Virus record (IMG/VR): IMGVR_UViG_3300031951_001142
Coordinates: 1-24,807 of that record
Strand: one strand, 5' to 3'
DNA length: 24,807 nt
DNA from: a virus
This document shows, in pieces, positions 5,519 through 22,285 of the stretch; within the stretch, counting starts at the first letter, position 1; the number at the start of each line of letters is the position of its first letter. Below the pieces are notes generated by a model. It made no database searches, was not told where the DNA came from, and saw only the letters and a program-made list of their open reading frames with translations. A program made the translations under genes and the position numbers.

Positions 5519-5955
5519 GCATGAGCAACACCGCCGAGACCGCGCTTCTTCGGCTGCTTTTCCAGAACACCGCCTTCGCCAACATCGGCGACGCCAGCGG
5601 CCTGCAGCCGTCGGCCGCCGCGGGCAGCTTCTTCGTGCGCCTGCACACCGCCGACCCCGGCGAGGCCGGCACGGGCGACACGAGCGAGGTGGCGTACACC
5701 GGATACGCCCCGGTCGGCGTGGCGCGCAGCGCCGGCGGCTTCACCGTGACCGGCGACCAGGTGAGCAACACCGCGACTGTGCAGTTCGGCGAGTGCACTG
5801 CGGGCAGCGCGACGGCCACGCACTTCAGCGTCGCCATGGGCGCGGGCGCGGGCGCGGCCATTCTGTACCGGGGCGCCCTCAGCGCGGCGCGCAGCATCAG
5901 CGCCGGCATCACGCCGCTGTTCAACCCGGGCGCTCTGACGGGCACGGTGAACTGA
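5515..5955 (+). CDS. Tail-fibre-like / Gp80-like structural protein
   Basis: 146 residues. The opening NTAETALLRLLFQNTAFANIGDASGLQPS and the FFVRLHTADPGEAGTGDTSEVAYTGYAPV block are characteristic of a widespread small phage protein usually annotated as tail fibre protein (the mycobacteriophage gp80-like family). The rest is alternating Gly/Ala/Thr strands. ATGA overlap with the previous gene and AGGAGA at 5504-5509 support the start. The family is commonly found beside structural genes; a proven function is lacking as far as I know. The position next to the portal, not the tail, suggests attachment to capsid or neck, which is inference. Confidence 0.75.
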   Translation: MSMSNTAETALLRLLFQNTAFANIGDASGLQPSAAAGSFFVRLHTADPGEAGTGDTSEVAYTGYAPVGVARSAGGFTVTGDQVSNTATVQFGECTAGSATATHFSVAMGAGAGAAILYRGALSAARSISAGITPLFNPGALTGTVN

Positions 5956-6815: not shown

Positions 6816-6817
6816 AC

Positions 6818-7699: not shown

Positions 7700-7700
7700 C

Positions 7701-8453: not shown

Positions 8454-8887
8454 TGAGCGCGCTCGGCCGGTGGCTCGGTTCCTGGGCCGGCCGCTGGTAC
8501 GGCGCGGCGGGTGGCGAGGGGCCGCCGCCTGCGCACGTCATCGAGGCCCGCGGCGTTGCGGTCGACGTTACGGTCGGCCGCCCCAGCGTCACGCCGGTCG
8601 CTCCGCCCGAGCCCGAGCCCCCAGCCGTCGGCGGATGGTCGGCACCGTGGAAGCCCGCGCCGCGCCGCGTCACCGCCGCGCCGGTCCTCGCCGAGGCCCG
8701 CGTCGGCAGCCCCCGCATCACGCTGCAGCTGCGCGCGGTGCATGCAGGCATGCAGGCATGCAGCGCCGGCCGCCCGCTGGTGCTGACCGACCCCGTGCCG
8801 CCGAAGCGCCGCGCAGCGCCGAAACCGACCGGGCCGACGCCGGCCGAGCTGCAGGCCGAGGACGAGCAGCTGCTGCTGATGGACTGA
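8453..8887 (+). CDS. Small phage protein with Trp/Gly-rich N-terminus
   Basis: 144 residues. The start overlaps the preceding stop (TGATG). The N-terminus SALGRWLGSWAGRWYGAA belongs to a W-G-rich motif seen at the start of small proteins next to phage structural genes carrying the same C-terminal module as the previous gene, so the two probably work together. The rest is Pro/Ala/Arg-rich and probably disordered, with two short similar segments (IEARGVAVDVTVGRPSVT and LAEARVGSPRITLQL), and an acidic C-terminus (QAEDEQLLLMD). Function is unknown. The DNA includes a short tandem repeat at 8741-8763. The reading frame uses the same GC-rich codons as its neighbours. Confidence 0.65.
   Translation: MSALGRWLGSWAGRWYGAAGGEGPPPAHVIEARGVAVDVTVGRPSVTPVAPPEPEPPAVGGWSAPWKPAPRRVTAAPVLAEARVGSPRITLQLRAVHAGMQACSAGRPLVLTDPVPPKRRAAPKPTGPTPAELQAEDEQLLLMD
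8741..8763 (+). repeat. Three tandem copies of an 8-bp unit
   Basis: The unit CATGCAGG occurs at 8741 and 8749, with a third copy at 8757 ending before the last G (CATGCAG). Each copy borders a GCATGC palindrome. The unit is not a multiple of three, so gain or loss of a copy would shift the frame of the gene that contains it. Confidence 0.7.
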
Positions 8888-9953: not shown

Positions 9954-10121
9954 TCAGAGCCCTCGGACGGTGTTGCCGTAGAACCGCACGCGCTGCAGCT
10001 CGGCCTCGTGCTCGCGGCGCCGATCCTCGCGGTCTTCGCGCAGCCGGCTCATGTAGCCGAAGTGCCAGCCGAAGAAGGCGCCGATCAGGACGCCGATGCA
10101 GAGCCAGACGAAGGCGGTCAT
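9954..10121 (-). CDS. Small single-pass membrane protein, 55 residues
   Basis: Reading on the minus strand from ATG at 10121 to TGA at 9954 gives 55 residues. The start overlaps the stop of the upstream minus-strand gene (ATGA), a strong sign of translational coupling. Residues 2-23 form a hydrophobic helix (TAFVWLCIGVLIGAFFGWHF); the remainder is a charged, Arg/Glu-rich cytoplasmic-type segment (SRLREDREDRRREHEAELQR) likely to be helical. This plan is seen in small inner-membrane phage proteins such as spanin parts, holin-like or superinfection-exclusion peptides, but no motif decides between them. With one helix and a short basic tail it lacks the layout of common holins. Function unknown. 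Confidence 0.65.
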   Translation of the reverse strand: MTAFVWLCIGVLIGAFFGWHFGYMSRLREDREDRRREHEAELQRVRFYGNTVRGL

Positions 10122-10675
10122 CGCGTCGCATCCTCAGAAAGCCGCGCCAGCAGCGCCAGCTCGTCGGCGCTGAACGTCGCATCCACGCCGCCAGTCCCGG
10201 CCCGCTTCAGCAGGTCCGACCCCTCGGACTGCACCACGAGGCGGACGTAGCGGCGGAGGAGGTCGGCATGGTCAACGCTGTCGGCTGGGAACTCGATCTT
10301 CTTCAACGTGACGCCGCCGTGGTCGACGTAGAAGTCCGCCCCCACCATCACCAGGACGCCGCCAAGCTCGGCAGCAATCCGCAGCGCGGCTTCGTGTCGC
10401 GTCAGCGGCCAAGAAGGGGCGTGGATGGCGCGATCGGGGGCGGCGTGGTCGACGGCGCCCGGCTGCGGCTCCGGGATGCGGCCGAGCAGGCGGCCTTCCA
10501 TGAGCGCGAGCCCGAACCAACTGTCAGGCCACCCCTCAAGCCGGAAGACCTCCTCGTCGCCGTCAATGACGGAGATCATGCCGCTCCAGACCTGCACGAC
10601 TTCGACGTCGCCGTTCGGTCGCTGGAGCCAGTACCAGCCGTCGGGCGGCGGCGCTGTAGGATCTACGGTAGCCAT
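10118..10675 (-). CDS. Unknown protein of a minus-strand moron-like cassette
   Basis: 185 residues on the minus strand from ATG at 10675, supported by AAGGA about 9 nt upstream. The first 60 residues (PPPDGWYWLQRPNGDVEVVQ, then GWPDSWFGLALMEGRLLGRI) look like a small tryptophan-rich beta domain of a kind common in phage accessory proteins; the second part is mixed alpha/beta with a central segment (AALRIAAELGGVLVMVGADF) and a charged C-terminal helix. No catalytic motif, signal peptide or membrane helix is visible. It is co-transcribed with the 55-residue membrane protein whose start overlaps its stop. Opposite orientation, own upstream region and a flanking terminator are typical of morons, which often serve the lysogen (exclusion, defence or fitness). 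Specific function not recognised. Confidence 0.7.
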   Translation of the reverse strand: MATVDPTAPPPDGWYWLQRPNGDVEVVQVWSGMISVIDGDEEVFRLEGWPDSWFGLALMEGRLLGRIPEPQPGAVDHAAPDRAIHAPSWPLTRHEAALRIAAELGGVLVMVGADFYVDHGGVTLKKIEFPADSVDHADLLRRYVRLVVQSEGSDLLKRAGTGGVDATFSADELALLARLSEDATR

Positions 10676-10740
10676 GAGGCGGTTCCTTCGCTGAGTGGTC
10701 AGAATCCCGGGGTCGATTCGCAGTCGCCTCGGGCTTCGCC

Positions 10741-10769
10741 ATTGTGGGGCCCGCGACAGTGCCGCGCAA
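10741..10769 (-). promoter_or_regulatory. Weak promoter candidate for the minus-strand cassette
   Basis: On the minus strand, TTGCGC (10764-10769) and CACAAT (10741-10746) are separated by 17 nt, the standard spacing, and point towards the 185-residue gene about 65 nt downstream. The -35 matches only in its first three bases. It lies in the 117-nt divergent gap, where a promoter is expected; no better pair was seen. Confidence 0.25.
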
Positions 10770-10774
10770 CGCCG

Positions 10775-10784
10775 TTCCTAGCAT
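10775..10784 (+). promoter_or_regulatory. TTCCTAGCAT motif before the protease/scaffold gene
   Basis: An exact copy of the motif found before the portal gene, ending 8 nt before the ATG at 10793. Here the adjoining bases form a hairpin, CATGC (10782-10786) with GCATG (10791-10795), which encloses the start codon. After the terminator and the opposite-strand cassette, + strand transcription must restart in this gap, which favours a promoter role. Confidence 0.45.
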
Positions 10785-10792
10785 GCGCCGGC

Positions 10793-12115
10793 ATGAAGCA
10801 ATCGCGCGTGCACATCCTGTCGGCGGTCAACGCCGGCGCCGTGTCCAAGTCGGGTGGCCGGTACACCGTGGCGAACGTCGTCGGCTGTGTCGACGGCCTC
10901 GTGATGAACGGCATGCTGTACCCGGGCGAGCAGCTGGCCTCGGCCGCGCCGTCCCTCGAAGGCAAGCCCGCACCCGCCGGCCACCCGAAGGACGACGCCG
11001 GCCGCTACATCAGCGCGCTGAGCGGGAATGCCCTGCTGACCAGCTACGCGGGCGCCGTGTGCACGAACGTGCGGCACGAGGGCGGCCGGACGCTGTACGA
11101 CGTCGTCGTCAACGAGGCCCAGGCCAAGGCGCACCCGGACGGCGCGAAGCTGGTCGAGCGGCTCGAGGCGGCCATGAACGGCAGCAACGCCGAGCCGATC
11201 CACGTGTCGACCGGCCTCTTCTGCAAGGCCATCACGGCCAACGGCGAGAGCCTGGGCAAGAAGTACCAGCGCATCGCCACCGAGATCACCTACGACCACT
11301 CGGCCTTCCTGCTGAACGAGAGCGGCGCCGGCACGCCGGAGCAGGGCGTCGGCATGTTCCTGAACGCGGCCGGCGAGGCTGAGCAGGTCGAAGCGGTGGC
11401 CGTGAACGAGGCGCTCGACCGGCGCGGCGAAGGCCTCGGCTCGTGGGCTCAGGGCCTGCTGCGCAAGCTGCTGGGCAACGAGGACGAGCTCAGCCTCGAT
11501 CAGATCCGCGACGGCCTCTACAAGGGCCTGCCGAAGGGTGGCTGGGTCCGCGAGGTCTTCGCGCGCTACGCCGTCTGGTCAGACGCTGACGGCCGGATGT
11601 ACCGCCAGGACTACACCGTGGCTTCGGATGGGTCGTCCGTAGCATTTTCTGGGACTGCTCAAGAGGTGCGCGAGAAGCGCGAGTACGAGCCGATCAACAA
11701 CCTGCAGAAGGACGCCATGAAGGACATGCTCATCGCCGCGCTGAACGCCGCCGGCATCAAGACCGAGGGGCTGACCGAAGCGCAGCTGCTGTCGGCCTAC
11801 AACCAACACGTCAGCACCGCGGCCGTCGCCCCGGTGCAGGCCAAGCTCGACGCCGCAAACGCGCAGCTGCAGACGCTGCAGGCCAACGCGCAGCAGGCCG
11901 AAGCCGCCGAGCTGGCGACGCTGGCCACCGAGCTGGCCGCCAACTCCAAGGGCCTGACCGCCGACGACTTCAAGGCCATGGGCCTGAAGCGCTGCAAGGA
12001 GCTGAAGGCCAACGGCACGACCGCTGCGCCGGTGCTGCCGGGCGCTGGCGCCGCAACCGGCTCGGGCGAGCGCCAGCGCTACAGCCTGAACGAAGACTTC
12101 ACCAAGACCGCCTGA
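10793..12115 (+). CDS. Prohead protease with C-terminal scaffold region (DUF2213-like)
   Basis: 440 residues from ATG 10793; the open frame extends upstream, but that part is antisense to the minus-strand gene. Residues 1-200 resemble DUF2213/prohead protease-like proteins: the segment CVDGLVMNGMLYPGEQLA, then AGHP (His64) and HVSTG (Ser139), with TYDHSAFLL at 166-173, are candidates for the catalytic His/Ser and product-binding strands. A middle domain (about 232-300, GWVREVFARYAVWSDADGRM) is the insert often seen in this family. From 340 to 385 the sequence becomes an Ala/Gln-rich coiled coil (QAKLDAANAQLQTLQANAQQ), typical of scaffolds. The fused product would guide capsid assembly and then be cleaved. 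It lies before decoration and capsid genes, the expected place. Catalytic residues are inferred. Confidence 0.82.
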   Translation: MKQSRVHILSAVNAGAVSKSGGRYTVANVVGCVDGLVMNGMLYPGEQLASAAPSLEGKPAPAGHPKDDAGRYISALSGNALLTSYAGAVCTNVRHEGGRTLYDVVVNEAQAKAHPDGAKLVERLEAAMNGSNAEPIHVSTGLFCKAITANGESLGKKYQRIATEITYDHSAFLLNESGAGTPEQGVGMFLNAAGEAEQVEAVAVNEALDRRGEGLGSWAQGLLRKLLGNEDELSLDQIRDGLYKGLPKGGWVREVFARYAVWSDADGRMYRQDYTVASDGSSVAFSGTAQEVREKREYEPINNLQKDAMKDMLIAALNAAGIKTEGLTEAQLLSAYNQHVSTAAVAPVQAKLDAANAQLQTLQANAQQAEAAELATLATELAANSKGLTADDFKAMGLKRCKELKANGTTAAPVLPGAGAATGSGERQRYSLNEDFTKTA

Positions 12116-12128
12116 AGGAGAACGGACC

Positions 12129-12599
12129 ATGGCTGGCAATCGAGTTTTCCGCGGCGGCCGAAGCGAGCCCCGCACCATCAGCGACCGCACCGTCACTGGC
12201 GCGCTGCTGCCCTGCACGGCCGTGGCCGTCGGCGCCAGCGCGTTCACGCAGGCCACGTCGGCAAGCGGTGTGCGCCTGGCGCTGCTCGGCAACCGCGACT
12301 TCTACGGCGCGAGTGCTGACGGCTTCACCACCACGAACCCGCTCCTGACGCCCTACGTCAGCGGCGAAACCGGCGTGGCCTACAGCCTGCAGCCCGACGA
12401 CCAGGTGGTCTGGGCGATGGCCGCCGGCACCTACACCAGCGGCCAGGAGCTGACGGTCGCGGCCAACGGTCGCCTCGCGGCGGCGGCGGCCACCAACATC
12501 GTCGTTGCCTACTTCGACGACGCAGCGCTCTCGGGTGTCGCGCTCGCGGCCGGCGCTCTCGCCGACGTGTGCGTGGCGAACTTCTACACCAAGGCCTGA
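12129..12599 (+). CDS. Capsid decoration protein (putative)
   Basis: 156 residues with a strong Shine-Dalgarno (AAGGAGA, 8 nt before the ATG), expected of an abundant product. The chain is beta-rich and poor in charged residues, with TVTGALLPCTAVAVGASAF near the start, a central QPDDQVVWAMAAGTYTSGQE strand pair, and an Ala-rich end. Position directly between protease/scaffold and major capsid gene is the classic place of a head decoration (cement) protein, as lambda gpD or the DUF2190 group. I do not recognise the family from sequence alone; the call depends on location, size and predicted expression. It would bind capsid surface positions and stabilise the expanded shell. Confidence 0.68.
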   Translation: MAGNRVFRGGRSEPRTISDRTVTGALLPCTAVAVGASAFTQATSASGVRLALLGNRDFYGASADGFTTTNPLLTPYVSGETGVAYSLQPDDQVVWAMAAGTYTSGQELTVAANGRLAAAAATNIVVAYFDDAALSGVALAAGALADVCVANFYTKA

Positions 12600-12609
12600 C
12601 GGAGGGCGC

Positions 12610-13611
12610 ATGGACTACAAGCTGAACTTCACCAAGGATCAGGAAGACCTGATCTGGAACGAGCGCCACGCCTTCGATGCACGCATGGAGGCTCTGGCAG
12701 CCAACAGCGGCGCCATGGTCGGCAACGCGCTGCCCATCCCGCTGGACGCCTGGCGCCGCATCGACAGCCGCGCGCAGGCCATCGCCCGCAGCCGGCTCGC
12801 CGTGTTCGGCCGCCTCGCGCAGGCCAACACCACGCCCGTCGGCATCGCTGACCTGCTGAGCTACTACGCGCAGACCACCGACTCCAACGAGGTGCTCGTC
12901 ACCATGGACGGCCGCGTCGAGACGAAGGGCGACCAGGCCAACGTGCAGATGGTGGGCACCCCGGTGCCGATCGTCACCACCGGCGCGCGCTTCGGCTGGC
13001 GTCAGATGGAGGTGATCCGCCGCGGCGGCAACATGATCGACCAGGCCACCTTCGCCAACGGCCAGCGCCGTCTGGCCGAGTGGCTGGAGAACATGGTGCT
13101 GAACGGCGTGCCGACCGTGAACGTGGCCGGCGCCAGCATCCAGGGCCTTCGCACCTTCACGCAGCGCTTCACGGGCAACCACACGTTCACGCTGGCCACG
13201 GCCACGGGCGCGAACTGGGTCACGGCCGTGAACCAGATGCTGTCGGGCCTCGAGTCGCGCAACCAGTTCGGCCAGGTGACGATCTTCGTGAACCAGGGCG
13301 ACTACCGCAGCATCGACACGCGCGACTACGCGGCGAACTACCCGGGCACGATCCTGCAGCGCCTGCTGGCGATCAGCCAAGTGGCCGAGATCGTCCCGGC
13401 GTCGAGCGTGCCGGTGAACGAGCTGATCGGCGTCGCCGACATCGGCTCGGGCGAGTGGGGCAGCGTGCTGTCGGCCATGCCGATCACGACCCGGCCGAAG
13501 ACCCGCCAAGACCCGGAGGACGACTACGTCTTCACGATGATGGCGGCCCAGGCCCTGCAGCTGCGCGCTGACGCGAACGGCCAGTCGGCTGTTGCGCATC
13601 TGGTGCTGTGA
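12610..13611 (+). CDS. Major capsid protein, HK97-fold (encapsulin-like type)
   Basis: 333 residues from ATG 12610, chosen because GGAGG sits 5 nt upstream; the open frame reaches further up only inside the previous gene. The N-terminal helical segment (1-75) is short, so no large delta domain is present. Then come GDQANVQMVGTPVPIVTTGA and RFGWRQMEVIRRGG (127-140), NMVLNGVP (161-168), a central A-domain-like region with VTIFVNQGDYRSID (223-236), and the strand DYVFTMMAAQALQLRA near the end. This order resembles capsid proteins of the DUF6260/encapsulin-like group found with DUF1073 portals. It would form the icosahedral shell. HK97 fold is inferred from the family; no Lys/Asn crosslink motif can be judged. 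Confidence 0.85.
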   Translation: MDYKLNFTKDQEDLIWNERHAFDARMEALAANSGAMVGNALPIPLDAWRRIDSRAQAIARSRLAVFGRLAQANTTPVGIADLLSYYAQTTDSNEVLVTMDGRVETKGDQANVQMVGTPVPIVTTGARFGWRQMEVIRRGGNMIDQATFANGQRRLAEWLENMVLNGVPTVNVAGASIQGLRTFTQRFTGNHTFTLATATGANWVTAVNQMLSGLESRNQFGQVTIFVNQGDYRSIDTRDYAANYPGTILQRLLAISQVAEIVPASSVPVNELIGVADIGSGEWGSVLSAMPITTRPKTRQDPEDDYVFTMMAAQALQLRADANGQSAVAHLVL

Positions 13612-13615
13612 CAGC

Positions 13616-13894
13616 ATGAAGGTGCTCGTCACGTTCCTGGCGGCGCCGTGGCCTGCGGGCACGGTGCCCGGCCACGTGGTCGAGCTCGTGGGGTGCGACA
13701 GCATCCCGCTGTGGGCCGTCGGCAAGTGCGAGAAGGCGGCCGACGATGCCGGGGTAGTGTCCACCTGGACGCGGCCCGGCTTCGTCGTGCCGGCCGAGCT
13801 CCCCGGCGAGCCCGCGAAGAAGCCGCAGGGCGAGCCCGTGGTGAACCCGGCCCCCGCCCGCAAGACCGCGAAGGCCCAGGCCGCCGCCGGCTGA
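13616..13894 (+). CDS. Small unknown protein after the capsid gene
   Basis: 92 residues from ATG 13616, four bases after the capsid stop; there is no Shine-Dalgarno, so translation is probably coupled. The N-terminal half is compact (MKVLVTFLAAPWPAGTVPGH, VVELVGCDSIPLWAVGKCEK) and the C-terminal third is a Pro/Lys/Ala-rich, presumably disordered tail (PAPARKTAKAQAAAG). Small genes of this size and layout commonly sit between capsid and connector genes and are usually unassigned. It might be a head-assembly accessory or minor decoration protein; I do not recognise a family. Codon use matches its neighbours, which supports it as a real gene. Confidence 0.6.
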   Translation: MKVLVTFLAAPWPAGTVPGHVVELVGCDSIPLWAVGKCEKAADDAGVVSTWTRPGFVVPAELPGEPAKKPQGEPVVNPAPARKTAKAQAAAG

Positions 13895-13918
13895 GCCCGC
13901 GCACCGCCGTCGCCCGCC

Positions 13919-14287
13919 ATGCTCACGCTGCTGCAGGCGACGGCCTACCTCGACGAAACGCTCGGCATCACGGTGCCGAGCTTCGTCCTTCAGGCCGCCG
14001 TCGACGACGTGGCCACGCGCGAGGCCGCGATGACGACCGCGGGCTACAGCGCCTCGACCATCGTGCGCATCCAGGCCATGGCCGTGGCCATCCTCGCCGG
14101 CGCCGACTTCGCCCGCCGCATCAAGTCGCAGGCCGCCCCGAGCGGCTCGTCGCGCAGCTTCGAGAACGTCGACGACGCGCTCTCCCGCCTGCGCCGCGCG
14201 CTGTCCGCGCTCGACACCGCGAACACCGTCGCCGACCTGCTCGGCCCGGACCCGAAGACCGGAACCCTGCTGCTCGTGACCTGCTGA
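13919..14287 (+). CDS. Head-tail adaptor / neck protein (putative, gp6-like)
   Basis: 122 residues, almost wholly helical: LTLLQATAYLDETLGITVPS at the N-terminus, then DVATREAAMTTAGYSASTIV, a central hydrophobic helix and a C-terminal helix pair (RSFENVDDALSRLRRALSAL). All-helical proteins of 100-125 residues right after the capsid gene are usually the head-tail connector that docks under the portal (HK97 gp6, SPP1 gp15 type; DUF7370-like). The protein would complete the head after DNA packaging. In most phages the head-closure gene follows directly; here it is 5.7 kb away at 19951, with a surface-protein cassette between them. No Shine-Dalgarno is visible at ATG 13919. Family call is by architecture. 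Confidence 0.7.
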   Translation: MLTLLQATAYLDETLGITVPSFVLQAAVDDVATREAAMTTAGYSASTIVRIQAMAVAILAGADFARRIKSQAAPSGSSRSFENVDDALSRLRRALSALDTANTVADLLGPDPKTGTLLLVTC

Positions 14288-14319
14288 TGCGGGCGGCACC
14301 AGGCTGACCAGCCCCGCAC

Positions 14320-15996
14320 ATGGCCACGATCCAACCTGACAGCATCTCGGTCGCGTCGAGCGTGACGACGGCCTACGCGGGGCGGGCTGCGCCTACGCCG
14401 CCGCCCCCGCCCCCGCCGCCACCCCCGGCCCCTGCGTTGACCCTCGTCCCCGGCACGGCCAGCGCCACGGTAGGCGTGGCCGCCACCGGCTGGCGCGTGG
14501 ACAACACCGGCAGCGTGCCTGCCGCGGCCAGCGTCAACGTGCCCGCCGAGCTGTCCAGCAGCTTCAGCAACGGGCAGACCATCGCGGCCGGTGCCAGCGT
14601 GGCCTTCACCCTCACAGCGCTCGTGTCCGGCGCGCGCAGCGTGGCGCTCAGCAGCAGCACCCCGGGCGCGGTCATCAGCGGCAGCCCGGGCACGTTCACG
14701 GGCGTGTCGGCGCCGCCCCCGCCCCCGCCCCCGCCCCCGCCCCCGCCGCCGCCGCCGCCGCCAGCCCCGCCCGACTACATCAAGGCCCCGCCGGCCGGCG
14801 TCTCCAGTCTCGCTGCGCTCATCGGCGACAGCAACACCGAGCACAGCTTCAGGTCGACCCAGGCCTACTGGCGCAACGGCCTGCTGGGCGGCGTGCTGGA
14901 CATGCGCGCCAACAGCGGCAAGTCGGGCGTCGCCATCCTCGACCTGATCAGCCAAGTCGACGCCGTTTACACCAACGGCAGCAACCCGGGATTGCAGGGC
15001 CTGCCTCCGCTGGGCTGGGTGATCCTGCAGTTCGGGACCAACGGCTGGCGAGGTGTGACCTCAGTCGACTCGACCATGCGCTCGCAGTTCACCACGTTGG
15101 TGAACAAGCTCAAGCTGGTCGCTGAGCACGTCGTGATCATCACGATGCCACCGGCCGGCGGTGTCACCACGCCGCGCGCGGCAGGCTACCCGGTGGTCCG
15201 TGCGTACTTCCAAGAGTTCGTCCTCGCGGACTCCTCGAATCGCACCCACCTGATCGACGGCTGGGGCAGCACCATCGACAGCAGCGGGAACATCATCCCC
15301 GAGATGTGGCTGGTGGACGAGTACCACCCGAGCGGCGCCGGCTCGCGCCAGGTGGCGCTGACCGAGTTGCCCCAGTGGCAGGCCCTGCTGGCGAACCAGA
15401 GCTACGCCCGCGCGCCGTTGGTCACAAGCGCGGCCGACGTGTTCCCGGCCCAGCCGCAGTGGATCAACAACCCCACCGCCACGGGCACCGTCAGCGTCAG
15501 CGGCGCGTGGACTGGCACGCTACCCACCGGCTGGAACATCGGCACCAACGGCAGCGGCATCGGCGGCACGGTGGAGATCATCCCCGCGACTGCCGGCGAC
15601 CCGAACCCGGTGCCCTGGGTGCGCATCCGCCCGACCACGCAAAGCAGCTTCGCGCAGATCAGCCTGACGTTTGCCGCCTCGGGCCGGGCCATCACCGCGA
15701 GCGACCCGAGCGAGCTCGAGCAGTTGGTCGAACTGCGCTTCAACGGCATGCAGCGTTTCAACCAGCTGGAGTTCTGGATCCAGGCCGCCGGCTCCGTCAA
15801 GTTCGTGCAGACGGCCTACCTGCGCTGGGGCCCGACCATCGGCGCTAACGAGCAGGTTGTGTTGCGTCAGCGGTACTACCGCGATTCGTCCACGGTCGGC
15901 GGCACTCCGCTGGGCGTCATCTACATCTACAGCGTGGTCGCGGGCAGCGGCGACGTGGGCTACATCGACGTGCGCTGCCCGTCGGTGAGGGGGTGA
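14320..15996 (+). CDS. SGNH-hydrolase virion protein with polyproline linkers
   Basis: 558 residues in clear modules: a 24-residue N-terminus; ten prolines (27-36); an Ig-like beta domain (about 40-130); seventeen prolines (132-148); an SGNH/GDSL hydrolase (about 160-360); and a beta-rich C-terminal region (about 365-558). All four SGNH blocks are present: GDSN with Ser171, Gly200 in NSGKSG, GTN with Asn241, and DEYH with Asp333 and His336. Enzymes of this fold on phage particles can remove acetyl groups from surface polysaccharide, as shown for the coliphage G7C tailspike gp63.1. No signal peptide is seen, so I infer a virion component whose enzyme is held away from the particle by stiff linkers. 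Substrate is unknown. Placement among connector genes is unusual. Confidence 0.83.
   Translation: MATIQPDSISVASSVTTAYAGRAAPTPPPPPPPPPPAPALTLVPGTASATVGVAATGWRVDNTGSVPAAASVNVPAELSSSFSNGQTIAAGASVAFTLTALVSGARSVALSSSTPGAVISGSPGTFTGVSAPPPPPPPPPPPPPPPPPAPPDYIKAPPAGVSSLAALIGDSNTEHSFRSTQAYWRNGLLGGVLDMRANSGKSGVAILDLISQVDAVYTNGSNPGLQGLPPLGWVILQFGTNGWRGVTSVDSTMRSQFTTLVNKLKLVAEHVVIITMPPAGGVTTPRAAGYPVVRAYFQEFVLADSSNRTHLIDGWGSTIDSSGNIIPEMWLVDEYHPSGAGSRQVALTELPQWQALLANQSYARAPLVTSAADVFPAQPQWINNPTATGTVSVSGAWTGTLPTGWNIGTNGSGIGGTVEIIPATAGDPNPVPWVRIRPTTQSSFAQISLTFAASGRAITASDPSELEQLVELRFNGMQRFNQLEFWIQAAGSVKFVQTAYLRWGPTIGANEQVVLRQRYYRDSSTVGGTPLGVIYIYSVVAGSGDVGYIDVRCPSVRG
14398..14427 (+). repeat. First proline-codon tract (10 codons)
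   Basis: Ten consecutive proline codons, mostly CCG and CCC, encode residues 27-36 of the SGNH protein. The minus strand carries several runs of five G here and could form a G-quadruplex. It precedes the Ig-like domain and acts as a stiff spacer in the protein. Confidence 0.8.
14713..14763 (+). repeat. Second proline-codon tract (17 codons)
   Basis: Seventeen proline codons: alternating CCG and CCC giving a CCCCCG hexamer array, then pure CCG ending in CCA. It encodes residues 132-148 just before the SGNH domain. Such an array is prone to copy-number slippage in whole codons, so linker length may vary between related phages. Confidence 0.85.
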
Positions 15997-15997
15997 C

Positions 15998-16126
15998 ATG
16001 GCGGCAAGCAACAGCTGCTCTTCCTTCTGCCGCGAAGCGGCGGGCGGCGCCAGTGATGCGCTGCAAGTCGCCGCCTCGCTCGGCTTCTCGCTCCTTGAGA
16101 TGCTGCACACCTGGGAGAGCCTGTGA
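15998..16126 (+). CDS. Possible small gene, 42 residues
   Basis: ATG 15998 follows the SGNH stop by one base, and the TGA at 16124-16126 overlaps the GTG start of the next gene (GTGA). Both junctions have the spacing of the other coupled genes here, and without this ORF the 126-nt gap would be unexplained. The product begins MAASNSCSSFCREAAGGASD and ends in a mildly hydrophobic helix (ALQVAASLGFSLLEMLHTWE). It has no recognisable family. It might be a small structural or chaperone-like peptide for the neighbouring fibre proteins, or merely a coupling ORF. A longer overlapping frame (GTG 15993) runs into the next gene out of frame and is not convincing. Confidence 0.5.
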   Translation: MAASNSCSSFCREAAGGASDALQVAASLGFSLLEMLHTWESL

Positions 16127-18222
16127 AGCTGCCGAAGGTCACGATCGCGCTGCCGCAAGGCGCGGCGCTGAAGACGACGCGCCGCAAGGGCGATACGTCG
16201 GCGAGCGTGCTCGTGACGGTGAACCGTGGCACCGAGGTGGTGGTCGTGCGCGAGGCTGCGCCGGTCCCCGCGCCACCGGCTCCAGTGCCTGCGCCGCCTG
16301 CCCCCGCCCCGCAGCCGCCCGCGCCGCAACCGCCCGCCCCGCAGCCTGGGTTCATCAGGATCGAGCGCAAGACGCTCGATCGGCACGGCAGGCACGTTTG
16401 GTTCGGCGCCTGGGCCTGGGGCGACTCGTACAACCGCAGCACCGAGGAAATCCGCTTGTCGCCCGGCCAGCGCGTTTCCCTGGAGGCGTGGCGCGGCCGG
16501 GTTTTCGGCAGGGCTGAGATGCCAGAGCACACGTACACGCTGCTGCTCGATGGTCTCGCCTTGGCGACCGCAACCGCGCGCGCCGGCCAGCCGCGCTTCA
16601 ATTTCGAGTTTGTAGTGCCCGAGCTGGCGCCGGGGTGGCACGGTATCGACATCGGTGGCCTGCAGCCCGGCGAAGAAAGCATCAACTACTTCGCCCGCGT
16701 GGTCGGCGGCGTTGATACGCTGGTGCCGGTGGTGCAGTCGTCGCTCGAACTGTCGCACCGCCACCAGCCGCGCGACGCCAACGGCAACCTGCTGCCCGAC
16801 ATCCACTTTGCGCACGCCTGGGCCTGGGTGCCTGTCGGGCCTGCTGTGGCGCGGCCGACAGCGGATCACACCTATTTGCCCGTGACCGATCCGCGCGAGC
16901 AGACCGCGGACATGCTCGTGCCCGGCGACGCCTACCCGCCGACGATGCTGCGCAGCCTGCCGGGCGGCGGCAATTCCGCGATGGGCGCGCAGGCGTACTT
17001 CTGGGATCAGTGCATCGGCCTCAACGGCCGGGATGAGGGCCTGTTCCACCTCGACGGACCGCGGGGCATCGGCACGACCTGTTTCGTGACGCACCTCGAA
17101 GTCGGCCGCGCTACCGAGACACAAGACCCGCGCAGCACGCCCCGGAAGTTCGTCTACGGCTGCGAGCCGCGTCGCGTGTTCCGGGTCAGCAACACGGGTG
17201 AAGTGGTGACGCTGGCCGGCCGCCGCGGTACGCCCGGCGCCTACGAGCTTGTGGGCGATTGGTCCGCTGTGCCCGAGGCGATGCGCGGCTTCAAACTGCT
17301 GTGGGGCTCGTGCTGGGACTCGCGCACGTTGAGGGTGGACCCGAGCATGCCCCTGGTGGGCGGCCGTCCGGCGCACCCCAAGAACCCGCGCATGTACGTC
17401 GTGGACAGCATGCGCAACTCGCTGTACAGGCTGGAGTTCGACGGCCGCAGCCACGAGACGCCGGCCCGGGTGTTCCTCATCGCCACGCTGCCGGGCATGT
17501 GGGATTGCGTCGAAGACCCGAGCACGAACACCGTCATCGTCAGCCTGCGCGATCAGCACAAGGTCATCCGTATGACCTTCGACGGCGAGGTGTTGGAAAC
17601 GCTGCTCGAGCGCGACCCCACGCGGCCCGGCGCCGCGACGGTGGACTACCGGCACACGGCCTGGCTGCAGGGGACCACGCTTGAGCAGGCGCAGGCGCAG
17701 ACCATCCTGGCGCCTGAGGGCCTGTACCTGCAGGAGACCGAGCTCTACATCGGCAGCCGGGTCATGGAGCAGATCCCGGTGCTTGACCTGACCACGCGCC
17801 GCATCGTCCACCGCTACCCCGTGCCCGGTGCGCGCGGCCAGCACTTCGTCAAGTTCGCTGTGGGTGACGAGACTTTCGGCGGCAAGCAGACGGTGTTCCC
17901 GGCCACGTTCGCGGTGCAAGAAGGTGGGCAGTGGTACGGCATCCGCCGCGACGGCTCGCGCTGGATCAACAACGCGCCTTTCGCCCTCGACACCTACCAG
18001 ATGAGTTTCGCGGTCGGCGGCGGCCGGCTCATCGCTGGCGGCAGTGACTACGGGCTGCGGCGCTACTACAAAGGGCCGCGCCTGGACATGCCGCTCTACC
18101 GGCAGGGCGAAGCCGAGTTCTTCGCCATGCACGGCCGGATCGTGTACGGGCCGCGTGGCGTGGGTCGCTTCGATGTACCAAACGCCAGCCCAGCGCTCAG
18201 GTACTTCCTCGATCACAACTAA
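16123..18222 (+). CDS. Large putative beta-propeller virion protein with Pro/Ala hinge
   Basis: 699 residues from a GTG that overlaps the previous stop. A short N-terminal beta domain (1-45) is followed by a PAPPAP/PQPPAP hinge (47-75) and an Ig-like region (about 77-205). The rest (about 210-699) has repeated strand patterns such as RVFRVSNTGEVVTLAG, PRMYVVDSMRNSLYRLEFDG and TVIVSLRDQHKVIRMTFDGE, in which a short aromatic strand is followed by a D/N-G turn, as in NHL/SMP-30-like beta-propellers. I infer a propeller used for binding a host-surface ligand; enzymatic activity is possible but no active site is identified. No signal peptide is present. Codons are visibly less GC-biased than in the capsid genes, hinting at separate acquisition. 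It may equally be a tailspike-type protein. Confidence 0.7.
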   Translation: MKLPKVTIALPQGAALKTTRRKGDTSASVLVTVNRGTEVVVVREAAPVPAPPAPVPAPPAPAPQPPAPQPPAPQPGFIRIERKTLDRHGRHVWFGAWAWGDSYNRSTEEIRLSPGQRVSLEAWRGRVFGRAEMPEHTYTLLLDGLALATATARAGQPRFNFEFVVPELAPGWHGIDIGGLQPGEESINYFARVVGGVDTLVPVVQSSLELSHRHQPRDANGNLLPDIHFAHAWAWVPVGPAVARPTADHTYLPVTDPREQTADMLVPGDAYPPTMLRSLPGGGNSAMGAQAYFWDQCIGLNGRDEGLFHLDGPRGIGTTCFVTHLEVGRATETQDPRSTPRKFVYGCEPRRVFRVSNTGEVVTLAGRRGTPGAYELVGDWSAVPEAMRGFKLLWGSCWDSRTLRVDPSMPLVGGRPAHPKNPRMYVVDSMRNSLYRLEFDGRSHETPARVFLIATLPGMWDCVEDPSTNTVIVSLRDQHKVIRMTFDGEVLETLLERDPTRPGAATVDYRHTAWLQGTTLEQAQAQTILAPEGLYLQETELYIGSRVMEQIPVLDLTTRRIVHRYPVPGARGQHFVKFAVGDETFGGKQTVFPATFAVQEGGQWYGIRRDGSRWINNAPFALDTYQMSFAVGGGRLIAGGSDYGLRRYYKGPRLDMPLYRQGEAEFFAMHGRIVYGPRGVGRFDVPNASPALRYFLDHN

Positions 18223-18238
18223 GCTCGGAGCGTCTCAC

Positions 18239-19951
18239 ATGTCATTGCAAAACTCCGGTTCGCACAACCGAGGCTTGCTCGTCGCGAACACCGTGTACCA
18301 GCGGAACATCGAGATCAGCGCTGGTGCGAACCGGAGAATCTTCGTCGGGACCGCCGCCCAGCGGTTCTACATCGACACGCAGCTCTCGATCACCTTCAAC
18401 GGCGTCGCTGGGACGCTGGTGGCCGAGACCAGCACCGGCCCTGCGCCGCGGGTCCACATCTGGCGCTGGGACGATCCGGCAGTCGGGGTGGGCTTGCTGG
18501 AGGTGAACAACAACGTCAACCGCAACGACGGCATTTGGTTCTGGATCGTCGTTGACGAGTCGACTGGTGCCGTCACCTTTGCTCTTGACGAAAGTGCCTC
18601 GGACAACAACGCCAACCCTGCGGCGGTCGTGCCGGCGTCGAGCATTGCGTTCATGATCGCGCACGGGCTTGAGGCGTCGAACGGCGGATCAACGCCGTTC
18701 AGCACGATCGGAGCCGCTGATGGCGTGATCGTCACGGGATCCGCCCCGAACCGAACCTACCCCTCAAACACACAGCTTGCCGCGGTGACGGTGGTTGTGC
18801 CGCAGGGCGCAGCCGCCCCCGTCATCACCGGCCCCACCGGCGCCGCCGGCGCGGCCAGCATCACGCACAGCGTCAACGAGCTGCAGAACAACGCCGGCAC
18901 CTGGTCGGCCACCAGCGGTAGCGCGTGGAGCCTGTCCGGCACCGATGCCGGCTTGCTGAGCATCAGCTCGGGCGGCGTCGTCACCCTGGCCGCGGGCAGC
19001 TTCGACCGCGAGACGAAGGCCTCGTACTCGTTCAACGTCCTGCGCGACGCGGTGGCCCAGGCCGTCACGCTCAACATCAACAACGTCAACGAGGCGCCCA
19101 GCTTCAGCGGCCCCGACATCAGCGTGCCGGGCCTGGTGGTCGGCTCGGCCATGTCGAGCATCAATGCCGCGCTGCGGTTCGCCGACCCCGACGCCGGCGA
19201 CACCGGCACCTACAGCGCCGTGGGCACCTGGCCGGCTGGCGTCACGGTCAACAGCGCCGGCCTCATCAGCGGCACGCCCAGCGCCGCGGGCACCTCGAGC
19301 AACCTGCGCGTGCGGCGCACCGACGGCGGCGCGCTCACGGCCGACAGCAACCTGTTCAGCATCACCGTGTCGGCGAGCTCGACGCCGGTGTCGTTCACCG
19401 GCACCGTCAGCGCGCAGAGCGGCACCGTGGGCACGGCCTTCAGCTGGGCCGGCTCGGCGCTGGCGAGCTTCTTCTCCGGCAGCCTGACGCCCTTCGCCTA
19501 CAGCGTCAGCGCGGGCAGTCTGCCGCCCGGCCTGACGCTGAACAGCGGCACGGGCGTCGTCAGCGGCACGCCCAGCTCGGCTGGCACCTTCAACGCCACC
19601 TTCCGCGCGCTCGACACCGGCAGCAACGCGGCCACGAGCAACAGCGTGGCGTTCACGATCGCTGCGGCGCCGCCGCCTCCGACCGGCCCCACGCTGCCCG
19701 CCGTGGCCACCGACGCCACCGGCAGCACCCGGCGCACCGGCCAGACCACGCGCATGGTGGTCGAGCCCTTCACCAGCATCGAGGCGCTGGGCACCGGGGT
19801 TCGCACCATCGCCACGGGCACGACCGACGCGACGACGGGTGAGGTCACGCTCACCGGGCTGTCGCCGGGCACCTATGCGGTCCTCGGCTTCTTCCCGAGC
19901 ACCGGCGCCACTATCGCGGGCGTGCGGTTCCGCCTCGTCACGGTGAGCTGA
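18239..19951 (+). CDS. Cadherin/Ig-like repeat adhesin, probable fibre protein
   Basis: 570 residues from ATG 18239 with GGAG about 9 nt upstream; the open frame extends up only inside the previous gene. Residues 1-190 form a unique beta domain (VHIWRWDDPAVGVG, DGIWFWIVVDESTGAVTFAL). Then follow a cadherin-like repeat (about 207-284, ending in NNVNEAP) and two putative-Ig (He_PIG-type) repeats with GVTVNSAGLISGTPSAAG at 334-351 and GLTLNSGTGVVSGTPSSAGT at 431-450. After PPPP comes an 85-residue C-terminal domain. Such repeats serve as extended adhesive stalks on phage surfaces. The base composition shifts sharply near 18810, between the unique N-terminus and the repeats, suggesting a mosaic fusion. 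The stop overlaps the next start (TGATG). Likely a receptor-binding or reversible-adhesion fibre. Confidence 0.77.
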   Translation: MSLQNSGSHNRGLLVANTVYQRNIEISAGANRRIFVGTAAQRFYIDTQLSITFNGVAGTLVAETSTGPAPRVHIWRWDDPAVGVGLLEVNNNVNRNDGIWFWIVVDESTGAVTFALDESASDNNANPAAVVPASSIAFMIAHGLEASNGGSTPFSTIGAADGVIVTGSAPNRTYPSNTQLAAVTVVVPQGAAAPVITGPTGAAGAASITHSVNELQNNAGTWSATSGSAWSLSGTDAGLLSISSGGVVTLAAGSFDRETKASYSFNVLRDAVAQAVTLNINNVNEAPSFSGPDISVPGLVVGSAMSSINAALRFADPDAGDTGTYSAVGTWPAGVTVNSAGLISGTPSAAGTSSNLRVRRTDGGALTADSNLFSITVSASSTPVSFTGTVSAQSGTVGTAFSWAGSALASFFSGSLTPFAYSVSAGSLPPGLTLNSGTGVVSGTPSSAGTFNATFRALDTGSNAATSNSVAFTIAAAPPPPTGPTLPAVATDATGSTRRTGQTTRMVVEPFTSIEALGTGVRTIATGTTDATTGEVTLTGLSPGTYAVLGFFPSTGATIAGVRFRLVTVS

Positions 19952-20652
19952 TGGACCGCAACCTGCTCAGCACGATCCCGGTCGGCATCAGCGCCGGGCT
20001 CGAGATCGCCGGGCCGCCGGAGTGGGGCCTGCTGGGCTCGCAGATCCTGGCCGAGACGGCGACCGGCACGCACGGCCCCGGCGCGCTCATCAACGACGGC
20101 CTCAACCCCGCGCTGCTGTACGTGCCCGTGCTGCTGAGCCGCAGCGCTCCGGCCTTCACGCTGTACCCCAACGGCAGCTACGAGGGCCCAAACCCGTCGA
20201 GCGCGACATATGCGTTGTACGAGCAGGGCACGGGCCGCGTGCTGGCTGGCGACCCGGGCACGATCACGATCTCGACACCGCTGCCGCCCGGCTCCTACCT
20301 GCCGCAGCCCACGACCTCGGCCAGCTGGTCCTACCGGCAGACCGCCACCCTCTGGCCGCTGACCGGCCGCGACGAGTGGACCGGCGCTGTCACGCACGGC
20401 GCCCCGGCGCTGTTCCTCTGCGACTATGCCGAGGACGACGTGCGCATGCGCTCGGCCAGCGGCGAGGAGTTCACCTCGAAGCTGCTGATCTACACGTCGC
20501 TGCCCGGCGTGAAGCAGGGCGACATGGTCAAGATCGGCGCATCTGGCGTGGCCGACCCGTTCGCGGCCGGCGCCGAGGAGGTGCGAGCGGTGCGCACCTG
20601 GGCCGACACGTTCAAGGCCGAGGGCGACCCGGACTTCCGCATCGCCACCTGA
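19951..20652 (+). CDS. Head-closure-like protein with an extra N-terminal domain
   Basis: 233 residues. The C-terminal half from about residue 128 (YRQTATLWPLTGRDEWTGAV, then GAPALFLCDYAEDDVRMRSA, GEEFTSKLLIYTS, GDMVKIG, PFAAGAEEVRAVRTWADTFK) has the size and strand layout of a phage head-closure or stopper protein, which seals the DNA-filled head under the adaptor. The first 120 residues (GISAGLEIAGPPEWGLLGSQ and ALLYVPVLLSRSAPAFTLYP) look instead like a small beta domain of a fibre-associated protein. The start overlaps the adhesin stop, so this domain could be the docking site for the adhesin cassette. That role is inference. The alternative is that the whole protein is one unfamiliar connector. 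Confidence 0.62.
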   Translation: MDRNLLSTIPVGISAGLEIAGPPEWGLLGSQILAETATGTHGPGALINDGLNPALLYVPVLLSRSAPAFTLYPNGSYEGPNPSSATYALYEQGTGRVLAGDPGTITISTPLPPGSYLPQPTTSASWSYRQTATLWPLTGRDEWTGAVTHGAPALFLCDYAEDDVRMRSASGEEFTSKLLIYTSLPGVKQGDMVKIGASGVADPFAAGAEEVRAVRTWADTFKAEGDPDFRIAT

Positions 20653-20676
20653 CGGCGCGCGGCCCCGCGGTGGGCC

Positions 20677-20686
20677 TTCCTAGCAT
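20677..20686 (+). promoter_or_regulatory. TTCCTAGCAT motif before the gp10-like gene
   Basis: Third exact copy of the motif, ending 7 nt before ATG 20694. CATGC (20684-20688) and GCATG (20692-20696) form a 5-bp hairpin enclosing that start codon. There is no Shine-Dalgarno. The motif itself contains an in-frame ATG (20685), an alternative start three codons earlier. Confidence 0.42.
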
Positions 20687-20693
20687 GCCCGGC

Positions 20694-21086
20694 ATGGATC
20701 GCAACCGTGTCCGCGTGGTCAACCGCATGCCGCAGTTTCTGACGGCGACGCAGGCCCGCGCCCAGCGCACGGTGCTGACGATGCTGATCCCGATCGGCAG
20801 CGAGGCCGCGGGCATGATCCCGCGCGCCACGTCGGACCTCATCAACTCGCAGACGCGCGAGACCGAGATGAACGGCACCGTCGTGCGCGGCCGCATCGGG
20901 TTCATGGCCGAGTACGCGGCCGCGGTGCACGAGGCGCCCGGCACGCTGCTCGGCAAGAACGTGCCGCGGCCCAATGGCCTGGGCGTCGTCTGGGGCCCGT
21001 CCGGCGAGCCCGAGTTCCTGAAGAAGGGCGCCGAGCAGGCCAAGCCGCTGGTCGAGCAGGCGCTGCGCCGGGGGATGCGGCTGTGA
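20694..21086 (+). CDS. HK97 gp10-like neck / tail-completion protein
   Basis: 130 residues from ATG 20694; ATG 20685 in the same frame would add MPG. The middle (VRGRIGFMAEYAAAVHEAPG) and the end (GEPEFLKKGAEQAKPLVEQA) match the pattern of HK97 gp10-like proteins, in which a beta strand with a YAxxVHE motif is followed by a loop and a final helix (xFLxKA). These proteins join head to tail or complete the tail end. The gene lies between head-closure and tail-terminator genes, the standard order. It overlaps the next start by 4 nt (GTGA). A TTCCTAGCAT motif replaces the usual ribosome site, suggesting its own expression control. Confidence 0.83.
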   Translation: MDRNRVRVVNRMPQFLTATQARAQRTVLTMLIPIGSEAAGMIPRATSDLINSQTRETEMNGTVVRGRIGFMAEYAAAVHEAPGTLLGKNVPRPNGLGVVWGPSGEPEFLKKGAEQAKPLVEQALRRGMRL

Positions 21087-21445
21087 GCATCGCCCAGCGC
21101 ATCGAGGCCGCGATCCGCCCGGTGCTGCCCGGCGTCGTGCTGTCTTTCGGCCGGATCCACGGCGCACCCGACCCGCTCAAGCGCTACGGGGTGATCCGCC
21201 CCGCTGGCGGCAGCAGCGGCGACCGCGTGCGCCGGCCTCAGTTCACGCTCGACCTCATGGGCCTGAAGGACGGCGACGCCACACAGACCGCGGCCCTCGT
21301 CGAAGCGGCCATCCAGCGCATGCGCGAGCCTGTCGCCGGCCTGGTGTTCCTGGCCCCGAGCGAGCCCAGCTTCACCACCACCGCCGAAGGGCGGCCCCTT
21401 TCTTCGGTCGCCATCGCGGCGATCACCGAAACCGCACCTGTCTGA
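21083..21445 (+). CDS. Tail terminator protein (putative)
   Basis: 120 residues from GTG 21083 overlapping the gp10-like stop. The layout is alpha/beta: an N-terminal helix (IAQRIEAAIRPVLPG), strands with KRYGVIRPAG and PQFTLDLMGL, a helix (TQTAALVEAAIQRMREPVAG) and paired C-terminal strands. Proteins of this size and fold between the gp10-like and tail-tube genes are tail terminators (lambda gpU-type / DUF3168-like), which form a ring that stops tail-tube growth and docks to the head. The sequence is too divergent for a firm family match by eye, so the call is from position, size and predicted fold. Confidence 0.68.
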   Translation: MSIAQRIEAAIRPVLPGVVLSFGRIHGAPDPLKRYGVIRPAGGSSGDRVRRPQFTLDLMGLKDGDATQTAALVEAAIQRMREPVAGLVFLAPSEPSFTTTAEGRPLSSVAIAAITETAPV

Positions 21446-21463
21446 CCGCAGAGGAGAGAGACC

Positions 21464-21913
21464 ATGCCCGCCTACACCGGCCGCGACGTACTGATCGAGT
21501 TCGCCATCGGCGACGAAAACGCCACCCTCGGCTCGCTGGTCTTCAAGACCCTCGGGATGATGCGCGGCAAGGGCATGAACGTGAACTGGGACGTGGTCGA
21601 CGCCACCGGCGACAAGAGCCCGCAGTTCACGCGCCAGAGCCTCGTGACCTACAAGCAGGTCGAGTTCAGCGGCGACGGCGTGGCGTACACCGAGGCCGTG
21701 CACAACCAGGCCGAGCTCAAGGCGCACATCTACAACCCGGGCGCCGGCACTGCGAACCAGCCCAAGGCCTGGATCCGCCAGACCGCGCCGGACGGCGTGA
21801 CCGTCGGCCCGTTCATCTTCAGCGCCTGGGAGAGCGCGTCGCCCTACGACGACGTCGTCACCTGGAGCACGAGCGCGCAGTCGAACGGCGCCGTCACCTT
21901 CACGCCGGCCTGA
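21464..21913 (+). CDS. Major tail (tube) protein
   Basis: 149 residues with a strong AGGAGAG Shine-Dalgarno, as expected for a product made in many copies. It starts AYTGRDVLIEFAIGDENATL, has a KGMNVNWDVVDATGDKSPQF segment and ends with KAWIRQTAPDG, GPFIFSAWESASPYDDVVTW and SNGAVTFTPA, a combination I recognise from TP901-1-like tail tube proteins (phage_tail_2 type). It polymerises around the tape measure to form the tube. Only one tube-type gene and no sheath gene are seen, which supports a long non-contractile tail. The GAVTFT ending is common to many tube proteins. Confidence 0.86.
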   Translation: MPAYTGRDVLIEFAIGDENATLGSLVFKTLGMMRGKGMNVNWDVVDATGDKSPQFTRQSLVTYKQVEFSGDGVAYTEAVHNQAELKAHIYNPGAGTANQPKAWIRQTAPDGVTVGPFIFSAWESASPYDDVVTWSTSAQSNGAVTFTPA

Positions 21914-21940
21914 CCGCCGCACCACTCAGGAGCCTGAACC

Positions 21941-22285
21941 ATGCCCGCCATCAACAGCATCGAAGCCAACGCCATCGGCGACTTCTCGGCCCCGATCACC
22001 ACGCTCACGGCCAGCGACACGATCACCTTCAATCCGGGCCGCGTGCAGCTGCTGGTCATCCGCAACCCGACCGGCGGCTCGCTCACGCTCAAGATCGACG
22101 GCGACGCCGGCACGACCGTGGCCGTCCCGGGCCTGGGCAACGTCAGCGTTGCGGGCGGCTACGACATCGTCGTCGGCGCAGGCCTGTCGCGCGCCGTGCG
22201 GCTGTCGACCATCAGCAGCTACTGCCAGGGCGTGGTGACGCTGACGGGCGCGGCCACTGCGGTCGTGCAGCTGTTCAACATCTGA
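21941..22285 (+). CDS. Small beta-rich structural protein next to the tail tube gene
   Basis: 114 residues with a good Shine-Dalgarno (AGGAG). Beta strands alternate with Gly/Thr turns: TASDTITFNPGRVQLLVIRN, SLTLKIDGDAGTTVAVPGLG and SVAGGYDIVVGAGLSR. Such small proteins occur beside capsid or tail-tube genes as decoration units. The strong ribosome site and location suggest it is an abundant virion protein, perhaps a tail-tube decoration protein, but no family is firmly recognised. It does not look like an enzyme. The next gene follows after 18 nt and has no clear ribosome site. Confidence 0.65.
   Translation: MPAINSIEANAIGDFSAPITTLTASDTITFNPGRVQLLVIRNPTGGSLTLKIDGDAGTTVAVPGLGNVSVAGGYDIVVGAGLSRAVRLSTISSYCQGVVTLTGAATAVVQLFNI

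Follow-up and report, generated by a model that had tools for sequence, protein, structure and literature searches.

Devices with which siphophages bind their receptors are usually sought after the tape measure gene. Why, then, should genes for predicted surface proteins stand between two genes of the head-tail connector? The question is raised by positions 1-24,807 of IMG/VR virus record IMGVR_UViG_3300031951_001142 (the window), a 24.8-kb siphovirus head-neck-tail module. Between the gene for a presumed head-tail adaptor and that for a stopper-like connector protein lies a cassette (positions 14320-19951) that consists of a predicted SGNH hydrolase gene (gene A), an uncertain 42-codon open reading frame (ORF), a gene for a predicted beta-propeller protein and a gene for a predicted cadherin/Ig-like adhesin (gene B). 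The cassette likely encodes some virion-attached host-surface apparatus, and we favour, with rather less confidence, a modular appendage on the neck with which the phage would bind and trim polysaccharide of the host surface. At the sequence level, the locus points to a second host-interaction site, hypervariable and placed at the head-tail joint, in an environmental phage group whose connector protein carries swapped surface domains.

Relatives carry inserts between the same two genes

The window was compared with loci designated here by L-numbers, a set that includes overlapping and redundant records. The two connector genes, DUF7370 and phrog_797, are directly adjacent in Shigella phage Sf11 and in Citrobacter and Mannheimia phages, which indicates that the cassette was inserted. 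Contig L046 (49 kb; syntenic, with about 35-60% identity) has a single ORF of 78 amino acids (aa) between them. Within the close group, whose flanking genes are about 60-98% identical, an insert is present in every contig that spans the site. Inserts were counted in around 20 independent contigs of IMG/VR, which stem from different samples, and fall into at least six unrelated types of cassette. The insert measures 5.66 kb in the window, 5.76 kb in L020/L035, 5.43 kb in L016 and L017, 3.39 kb in L045, ~3.15 kb in L021-L025, L030-L033 and L041, and ~3.05 kb in L009, L010 and L018. Despite unrelated sequences, the same kinds of payload recur (SGNH, SASA, NHL, BNR_4, Kelch, PKD, He_PIG, fn3 and Ig_3). 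The L035 cassette starts with a gene that matches phrog_3758 ('virion structural protein'), and in L007 such a gene directly precedes the SGNH gene. Searches of genome contigs and of 369 genomes of the Mannheimia class returned the Mannheimia prophage as the only relative.

An earlier sequence-only reading of the window had listed the same genes, described them as tightly coupled and regarded connector genes as usually adjacent. The list and its coordinates were borne out, as was the adjacency for relatives of this lineage. The genes are separated by 1 nt at 15996/15998 and by 16 nt before 18239, and overlap by GTGA at 16123-16126 and by TGATG at 19949-19953. The start of gene B was corrected: the mechanical ORF opens at 18044 and the likely ATG is at 18239. 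No sigma-70-like promoter was found in 13500-21500. The further proposal that four genes form one unit held in so far as an exchangeable unit occupies a fixed site in about 20 relatives; membership of the 42-codon ORF, which had no homologue in any locus compared, is doubtful.

The stopper-like protein carries a variable extension

The gene that closes the insertion site encodes a chimera, of which only the C-terminal half is connector-like; the first ~118 residues form a variable extension. The phrog_797 core is 60-98% identical among relatives. The extension is absent from the L022 group and the outgroups, and measures 118 aa in the window type, 168 aa in L035, 191 aa in L006 and 331 aa in L055. 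The window extension is 82-89% identical in L009 and L016 and 58% identical in L045, and its alignment to the extensions of L035, L006 and L055 was no better than that of shuffled sequence. Since the L006 and L055 extensions share 47% identity over 97 residues, three extension sequence classes can be distinguished. The window-type extension gave no significant hhalign match to either the L035 extension or a free-standing L036 protein. When the window is compared with L035, identity is 98% for the adaptor and 82% for the phrog_797 core, yet the extensions are unrelated, which argues against a role of the extension in adaptor contact.

The extension class follows the class of gene B. A C-terminal domain of gene B, beginning at 19667 after an APPPP linker, has ~80 aa in common with L010, L013, L016, L019 and L045, and wherever both could be read (the window and these five loci) the window-type extension was paired with the window-type gene B C-terminus. 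L009 has a diverged form of both, and L006 and L035 represent the other classes. The two regions adjoin in the DNA, so simple linkage could also explain their pairing. By function, we assign the N-terminal extension to the cassette.

The order DUF7370, phrog_797, phrog_5, PF23842, tail tube is found in the window and its relatives, and fits a stopper gene of the SPP1 gp16/lambda FII class, which would lie between the adaptor and the gp10-like/terminator genes. Foldseek searches with a model of phrog_797 (predicted local distance difference test score, pLDDT, 55) gave seven top PDB entries that were all phage neck or connector structures (XM1, Douge, Pa193, phiCD508, E217, 7-7-1 and Milano; E 0.1-0.7). 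As these matches are weak, a beta-barrel stopper fold is only a possibility, and the stopper assignment draws mainly on gene order and on virion data. The latter come from Sf11, in which gp77 is the phrog_797 homologue (match 21717-22058; phrog_797 E 1e-42) and was found with gp78 in purified virions by mass spectrometry (PMC12724387). The fused extension should therefore be on the virion, unless it is cleaved. Sf11 shares the DUF7370/phrog_797/gp10 gene order with the window (L078:3615-4743; gp76 is DUF7370, gp77 phrog_797 and gp78 gp10-like) but has neither the cassette nor a phrog_797 extension, and its tailspikes sit at the tail tip. The neck proteins were left unnamed in the Sf11 cryo-EM study (PMC12724387); gp76 is likely the adaptor, gp77 the stopper and gp78 the gp10-like protein.

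Predicted folds of the cassette proteins

Gene A begins with a 22-aa N-terminal anchor, MATIQPDSISVASSVTTAYAGR, followed by a first polyproline linker, a spacer of ~95 aa, a second polyproline linker, an SGNH domain (residues 168-343) and a C-terminal beta region. From its Ser, Gly, Asn and His blocks with Asp-x-x-His, we classify the product by sequence as an SGNH/GDSL hydrolase. The catalytic motifs (GDSN at 169-172, GTNG at 239-242 and DEYH at 333-336) are intact, and all are retained in the ~59%-identical L007 protein. The only PHROG match of gene A is phrog_6102, filed as 'lipase' and 'moron, auxiliary metabolic gene'.

The propeller protein gave a weak initial sequence match (SGL, E 0.007). 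Its AlphaFold2 model, built from an alignment of seven sequences, had a pLDDT of 68, with core blocks mostly at 76-97. Foldseek against the PDB returned NHL domains (best E 7e-14, TMt up to 0.70, probability 1.0), including TRIM71, Thin and TRIM3 at TMt 0.65-0.70, and the protein is accordingly modelled as an NHL beta-propeller behind a beta-sandwich domain. Gene B contains two He_PIG stretches by Pfam. Sequence searches of the PDB yielded no usable match for phrog_797, DUF7370, gene A, gene B or the propeller profile; a match of Pizza6 to the phrog_797 profile was discarded, as no stretch passed. Searches of phage records with genes A and B by tblastn gave no match.

These results agree with the polyproline-linked SGNH hydrolase, the beta-propeller and the cadherin/Ig adhesin that the sequence-only reading had guessed. 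No unrelated intracellular fold was encountered, as judged by structure prediction for the propeller and connector proteins and by Pfam for the hydrolase and adhesin. The same reading had placed an all-helical adaptor and a head-closure-like gene at the borders, where DUF7370/phrog_786 and phrog_797 were matched; only half of the latter product is connector-like. Its central proposal, a neck- or head-mounted apparatus acting on surface polysaccharide, is partly supported: the folds are of surface type, the payloads are of kinds that act on polysaccharide, and a variable domain is fused to a connector whose homologue is proven in virions.

Modules appear to be exchanged at proline-rich linkers

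The anchor is 100% identical in L009, L010 and L016, 91-95% identical in L012, L013 and L036, and recognizable in L045, while the payload behind it differs: SGNH in the window, SASA esterase in L010, BNR_4 propeller in L013 and L045, PKD with Kelch-like in L016 and Kelch-like in L036 (the SASA and Kelch matches in L010, L016 and L036 lie below the Pfam curated cut-offs; a SASA match in L063 lies above). Every one of these genes A has a proline run behind its anchor, and a second run, at residues ~123-148, precedes the payload in all anchor-type genes A that were checked.

On the left side, the DNA of L009, L010, L012, L013, L016, L017, L018 and L036 loses its identity with the window at 14423-14434, inside the first proline-codon run or at its margin. 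On the right side, identity with most loci of the same class resumes at 19628-19680, near the APPPP linker; the exceptions are L009, L010 and L018, which share an Ig stretch further left, and L016 and L017, where identity resumes at 18813. In L006, L022 and L035 it resumes at 20279-20304, at the PPGSYLPQP linker of phrog_797 (20284). By these coordinates, the swap junctions appear to fall at proline-rich linkers. Selection for joins at domain boundaries would look the same as recombination in repeats. We also observed alanine/glycine-rich repeats (AxxAGGAL-like) in place of proline linkers at L035:10834-12408, L035:14574-16478, L055:1650-2990 and window positions 7701-8453, perhaps as an alternative linker.

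Homologues of the modules occur in other genomic settings. A pair resembling the SGNH domain and the N-terminus of gene B (60% and 45% identity) lies near fibre-like genes of an unrelated phage, L007, under another anchor. Propeller homologues are found after the portal gene in MW202621.1 (28%), one gene ahead of a gp6-like connector (PF05135) in L064 and, going by the ORFs of L067, between its lysis and terminase genes. In L070, the homologue is part of a 12-kb run of adhesin-like genes that extends from the portal to the PF05135 connector and opens with a GP4 fibre-I-like protein, an order repeated in L071. L063 has a propeller (54%) followed by a SASA esterase, as does L006. These occurrences (L007, L063, L064, L067, L070 and MW202621.1) imply that the modules travel between unrelated phages, often, not always, in head-neck modules.

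A proposed neck-mounted appendage and its alternatives

A neck location of the cassette proteins is probable. In the mechanism that we propose, the phrog_797 core would form the neck ring and its N-terminal extension would protrude outward as a platform, to which the conserved C-terminal domain of gene B probably docks. Short N-terminal anchors would attach gene A and the propeller protein, and stiff proline-rich linkers would hold them off. The propeller and Ig domains may bind capsule, O-antigen or exopolysaccharide, and the SGNH domain may strip acyl (acetyl) groups from the bound polymer. Such reversible gripping and trimming would precede engagement of a conventional tail tip, and specificity could be changed by swapping modules between linkers. 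The outward exposure, the docking, the sugar substrate and the role in adsorption are thus parts of the model. Beyond the tape measure, relatives also have genes of tail-tip type (DUF1833 and Phage-tail_3 matches), which makes the cassette an addition. More tentatively, and with slightly less than an even chance in our estimation, the stopper could be an evolvable host-recognition platform, in which unrelated domains are grafted at the N-terminus, the matching multi-gene adhesin/esterase cassette is exchanged between phages at proline-rich linkers, and both the neck and the tail tip determine host range.

Several points weigh against a neck appendage. Virions of this lineage have never been studied; sugar binding and esterase activity are predictions. 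The phrog_797 model is weak (pLDDT 55), with Foldseek matches only at E of at least 0.1. The stopper N-terminal extensions of lambda and R4C contact the adaptor and are not described as outward-facing (PMC10276861), an objection tempered by the R4C extension folding as a helix. Gene position is no proof of virion position, and homologues also occur among fibre-like genes (L007), among lysis and packaging genes (L067) and after the portal (MW202621.1).

The first alternative, which we regard as unlikely, is that the cassette proteins are appendages of the capsid, namely head fibres or spikes as in RcGTA. Related proteins are indeed encoded in head modules, after the portal in MW202621.1 and beside the GP4 fibre-I-like protein in L070/L071 (which in the window is phrog_240, 'head protein'); phrog_4069, a Hoc-like head decoration, has matches among the Ig domains of gene B relatives; and the head fibres of RcGTA bind capsule (PMC7296036). 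However, the variable extension is fused to the connector and not to a capsid protein, its class tracks that of the gene B C-terminus, and the close group has the cassette between the connector genes every time.

Somewhat less likely still, the products may be receptor-binding proteins of the tail tip or tail shaft, the gene position being merely a convenient insertion site in the late operon. The location of the closest SGNH and gene B N-terminus pair near fibre-like genes in L007 speaks for this, as do the Sf11 tailspikes at the tail tip (PMC12724387). This leaves the variable domain fused to phrog_797 unexplained, and is at odds with the differing gene A anchors of L007 and the window group and with the separate tail-tip genes of relatives.

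We consider it very improbable that the infected cell releases the proteins, as soluble enzymes or products of moron type, and that they are no part of the virion. The filing of phrog_6102 as a moron fits this explanation, but no promoter of their own was found and no signal peptide is evident, the genes overlap connector genes, the anchor peptide is conserved, and variable domains are fused to a connector protein that has a homologue in virions. The same grounds of promoter, overlap and anchor make independent moron genes unlikely. Finally, contig 3300033992_000512 (L011/L036) does look chimeric, with two portal genes, but an assembly chimera or chance insertion in one contig was rejected, as around 20 independent contigs from different samples carry the insert between the same genes. 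At L036:15694-17281 on that contig, the cassette is followed by a phrog_5774 head-tail joining gene and the second portal gene (phrog_21), which could reflect either a chimeric assembly or a cassette that a different phage also has.

Relation to known systems

The neck passage structure (NPS) of lactococcal 936/P335 phages is a collar appendage attributed to the head-tail connector and accessory to the tail-tip receptor-binding protein (PMC6669499). Like the cassette, it combines a conserved N-terminus with exchangeable carbohydrate-active C-terminal classes, seven in the NPS, including carbohydrate-binding and carbohydrate-esterase-like folds. The NPS is one protein with a BppU-like N-terminal domain of ~130 residues and a coiled coil, whereas the cassette spans several genes, has proline linkers and an anchor of just 22 aa, and is accompanied by variable domains on the stopper itself. 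Neither a BppU-like beta-sandwich nor a trimeric coiled coil was found in the cassette by Pfam at E<=1, and the gene A anchor runs straight into polyproline.

Alteromonas phage R7M has whiskers at the head-tail interface in transmission electron micrographs, and its putative whisker protein, ORF28, is the second most abundant virion protein (PMC8265664; MT345684.1). In our analysis, ORF28 contains PKD/Ig domains and its gene lies directly ahead of the adaptor gene, which is followed by the stopper gene. Both systems encode a large PKD/Ig-type surface protein at the adaptor/stopper genes, but ORF28 is a single gene before the adaptor, without an enzyme or propeller match, in a separate lineage (Queuovirinae). 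The likeness to the NPS and to the R7M whisker is one of principle, not of sequence or anchor. By anchor and architecture, the cassette appears to fall outside the lactococcal NPS family, yet it would work like an NPS or whisker. The Milano collar is a further precedent (PMC10491603).

The RcGTA head spikes (PMC7296036) are capsule-binding auxiliary virion fibres with a short N-terminal peptide anchor, as predicted for the cassette. They differ in sitting on eleven capsid vertices through a five-fold base protein. By eye, the gene A anchor lacks the leucine/glycine repeat of RcGTA type; the jellyroll base protein was not searched for. The SGNH-type polysaccharide deacetylases of Aristophanes (PMC8471582) and Possum (PMC9569702) are reported as virion-appendage enzymes that act on host surface polysaccharide, as proposed for gene A; they belong to tail appendages, whereas gene A is encoded in the connector region. 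A practical rule follows for finding more such cassettes, namely to look for long inserts between adaptor and stopper genes.

Gene organization of the window

The coordinates of the cassette and its neighbours are collected in Table 1. In the cassette and border genes, third-position GC content ranges from 0.88 to 0.97; the 42-codon ORF has 0.81. A DNA-level search of phage records gave two short methyltransferase matches and nothing else.

Table 1. Features of the window
Feature	Position	Strand	Basis or remark
Terminase, then portal	portal at 3423		
MuF protein	8895		
phrog_760 protein	called at 10268		
Capsid protein	within 12505-13611		
Presumed head-tail adaptor (DUF7370/phrog_786), 122 aa	13919-14287	+	Left border of cassette; PF24085 E 2.8e-22, phrog_786 E 5e-21
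Gene A, 558 aa	14320-15996	+	Lipase_GDSL_2 E 6e-9
Anchor peptide MATIQPDSISVASSVTTAYAGR	14320-14385	+	Conserved across loci, unrelated proteins behind
Polyproline linker 1	14398-14427	+	Left swap junction
Polyproline linker 2	14713-14763	+	P17 run; spacer-enzyme boundary
42-codon ORF, uncertain	15998-16126	+	Translationally coupled; GAGGGGG before ATG; overlaps GTG of next gene
Propeller gene, 699 aa: proline-rich linker, predicted beta-sandwich domain and NHL beta-propeller	16123-18222	+	AlphaFold2 and Foldseek
Gene B, 570 aa, predicted He_PIG (cadherin/Ig-like) adhesin	18239-19951	+	He_PIG E 7e-20
Connector protein, 233 aa, stopper-like	19951-20652	+	phrog_797 E 8e-27, residues 123-233 only
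Variable N-terminal extension of connector protein	19951-20304	+	
phrog_797 core, stopper/head-closure-like	20305-20652	+	
HK97 gp10-like tail completion/neck gene	20676-21086	+	phrog_5 E 1.6e-6; context right of cassette
Terminator	21083		
Tail tube	21464		
Tape measure	22938 to window end		

The phrog_760 match begins at residue 176 of ORF 10268-12115, so the gene probably starts near 10793 and not at 10268. A minus-strand ORF of 185 aa is present at 10118-10675, between the MuF and phrog_760 genes.

Other variable sites

A second variable appendage site was observed at 5105-8887 (plus strand), between the portal and MuF genes, with a phrog_644 protein, a GP4 fibre-I-like protein and further proteins without matches. 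The region 5515-5955 matches PF23140, fibre I gp80 of Ralstonia podophage GP4 (E 1e-16), and PDB 8jou_a (E 1.4e-5). This homologue thus lies outside the 14320-19951 cassette, and its counterparts in L070/L071 stand beside the propeller gene. The portal-MuF insert is absent in L038/L041.

In L021, L025, L031, L041 and relatives (for example L041:3842-5737), the MuF gene matches residues 2-284 and then residues 258-313 again (52-60%) ~860 nt downstream, as if the C-terminal part had either been duplicated or been pushed away by an insertion. Directly after the tape measure, L054 (5026-7086) and L033 (15248-17419) have a gene for ~690-720 aa, where L046 has short genes of similar start (121 and 156 aa); a second extended tail protein is possible in the L054 and L033 phages.

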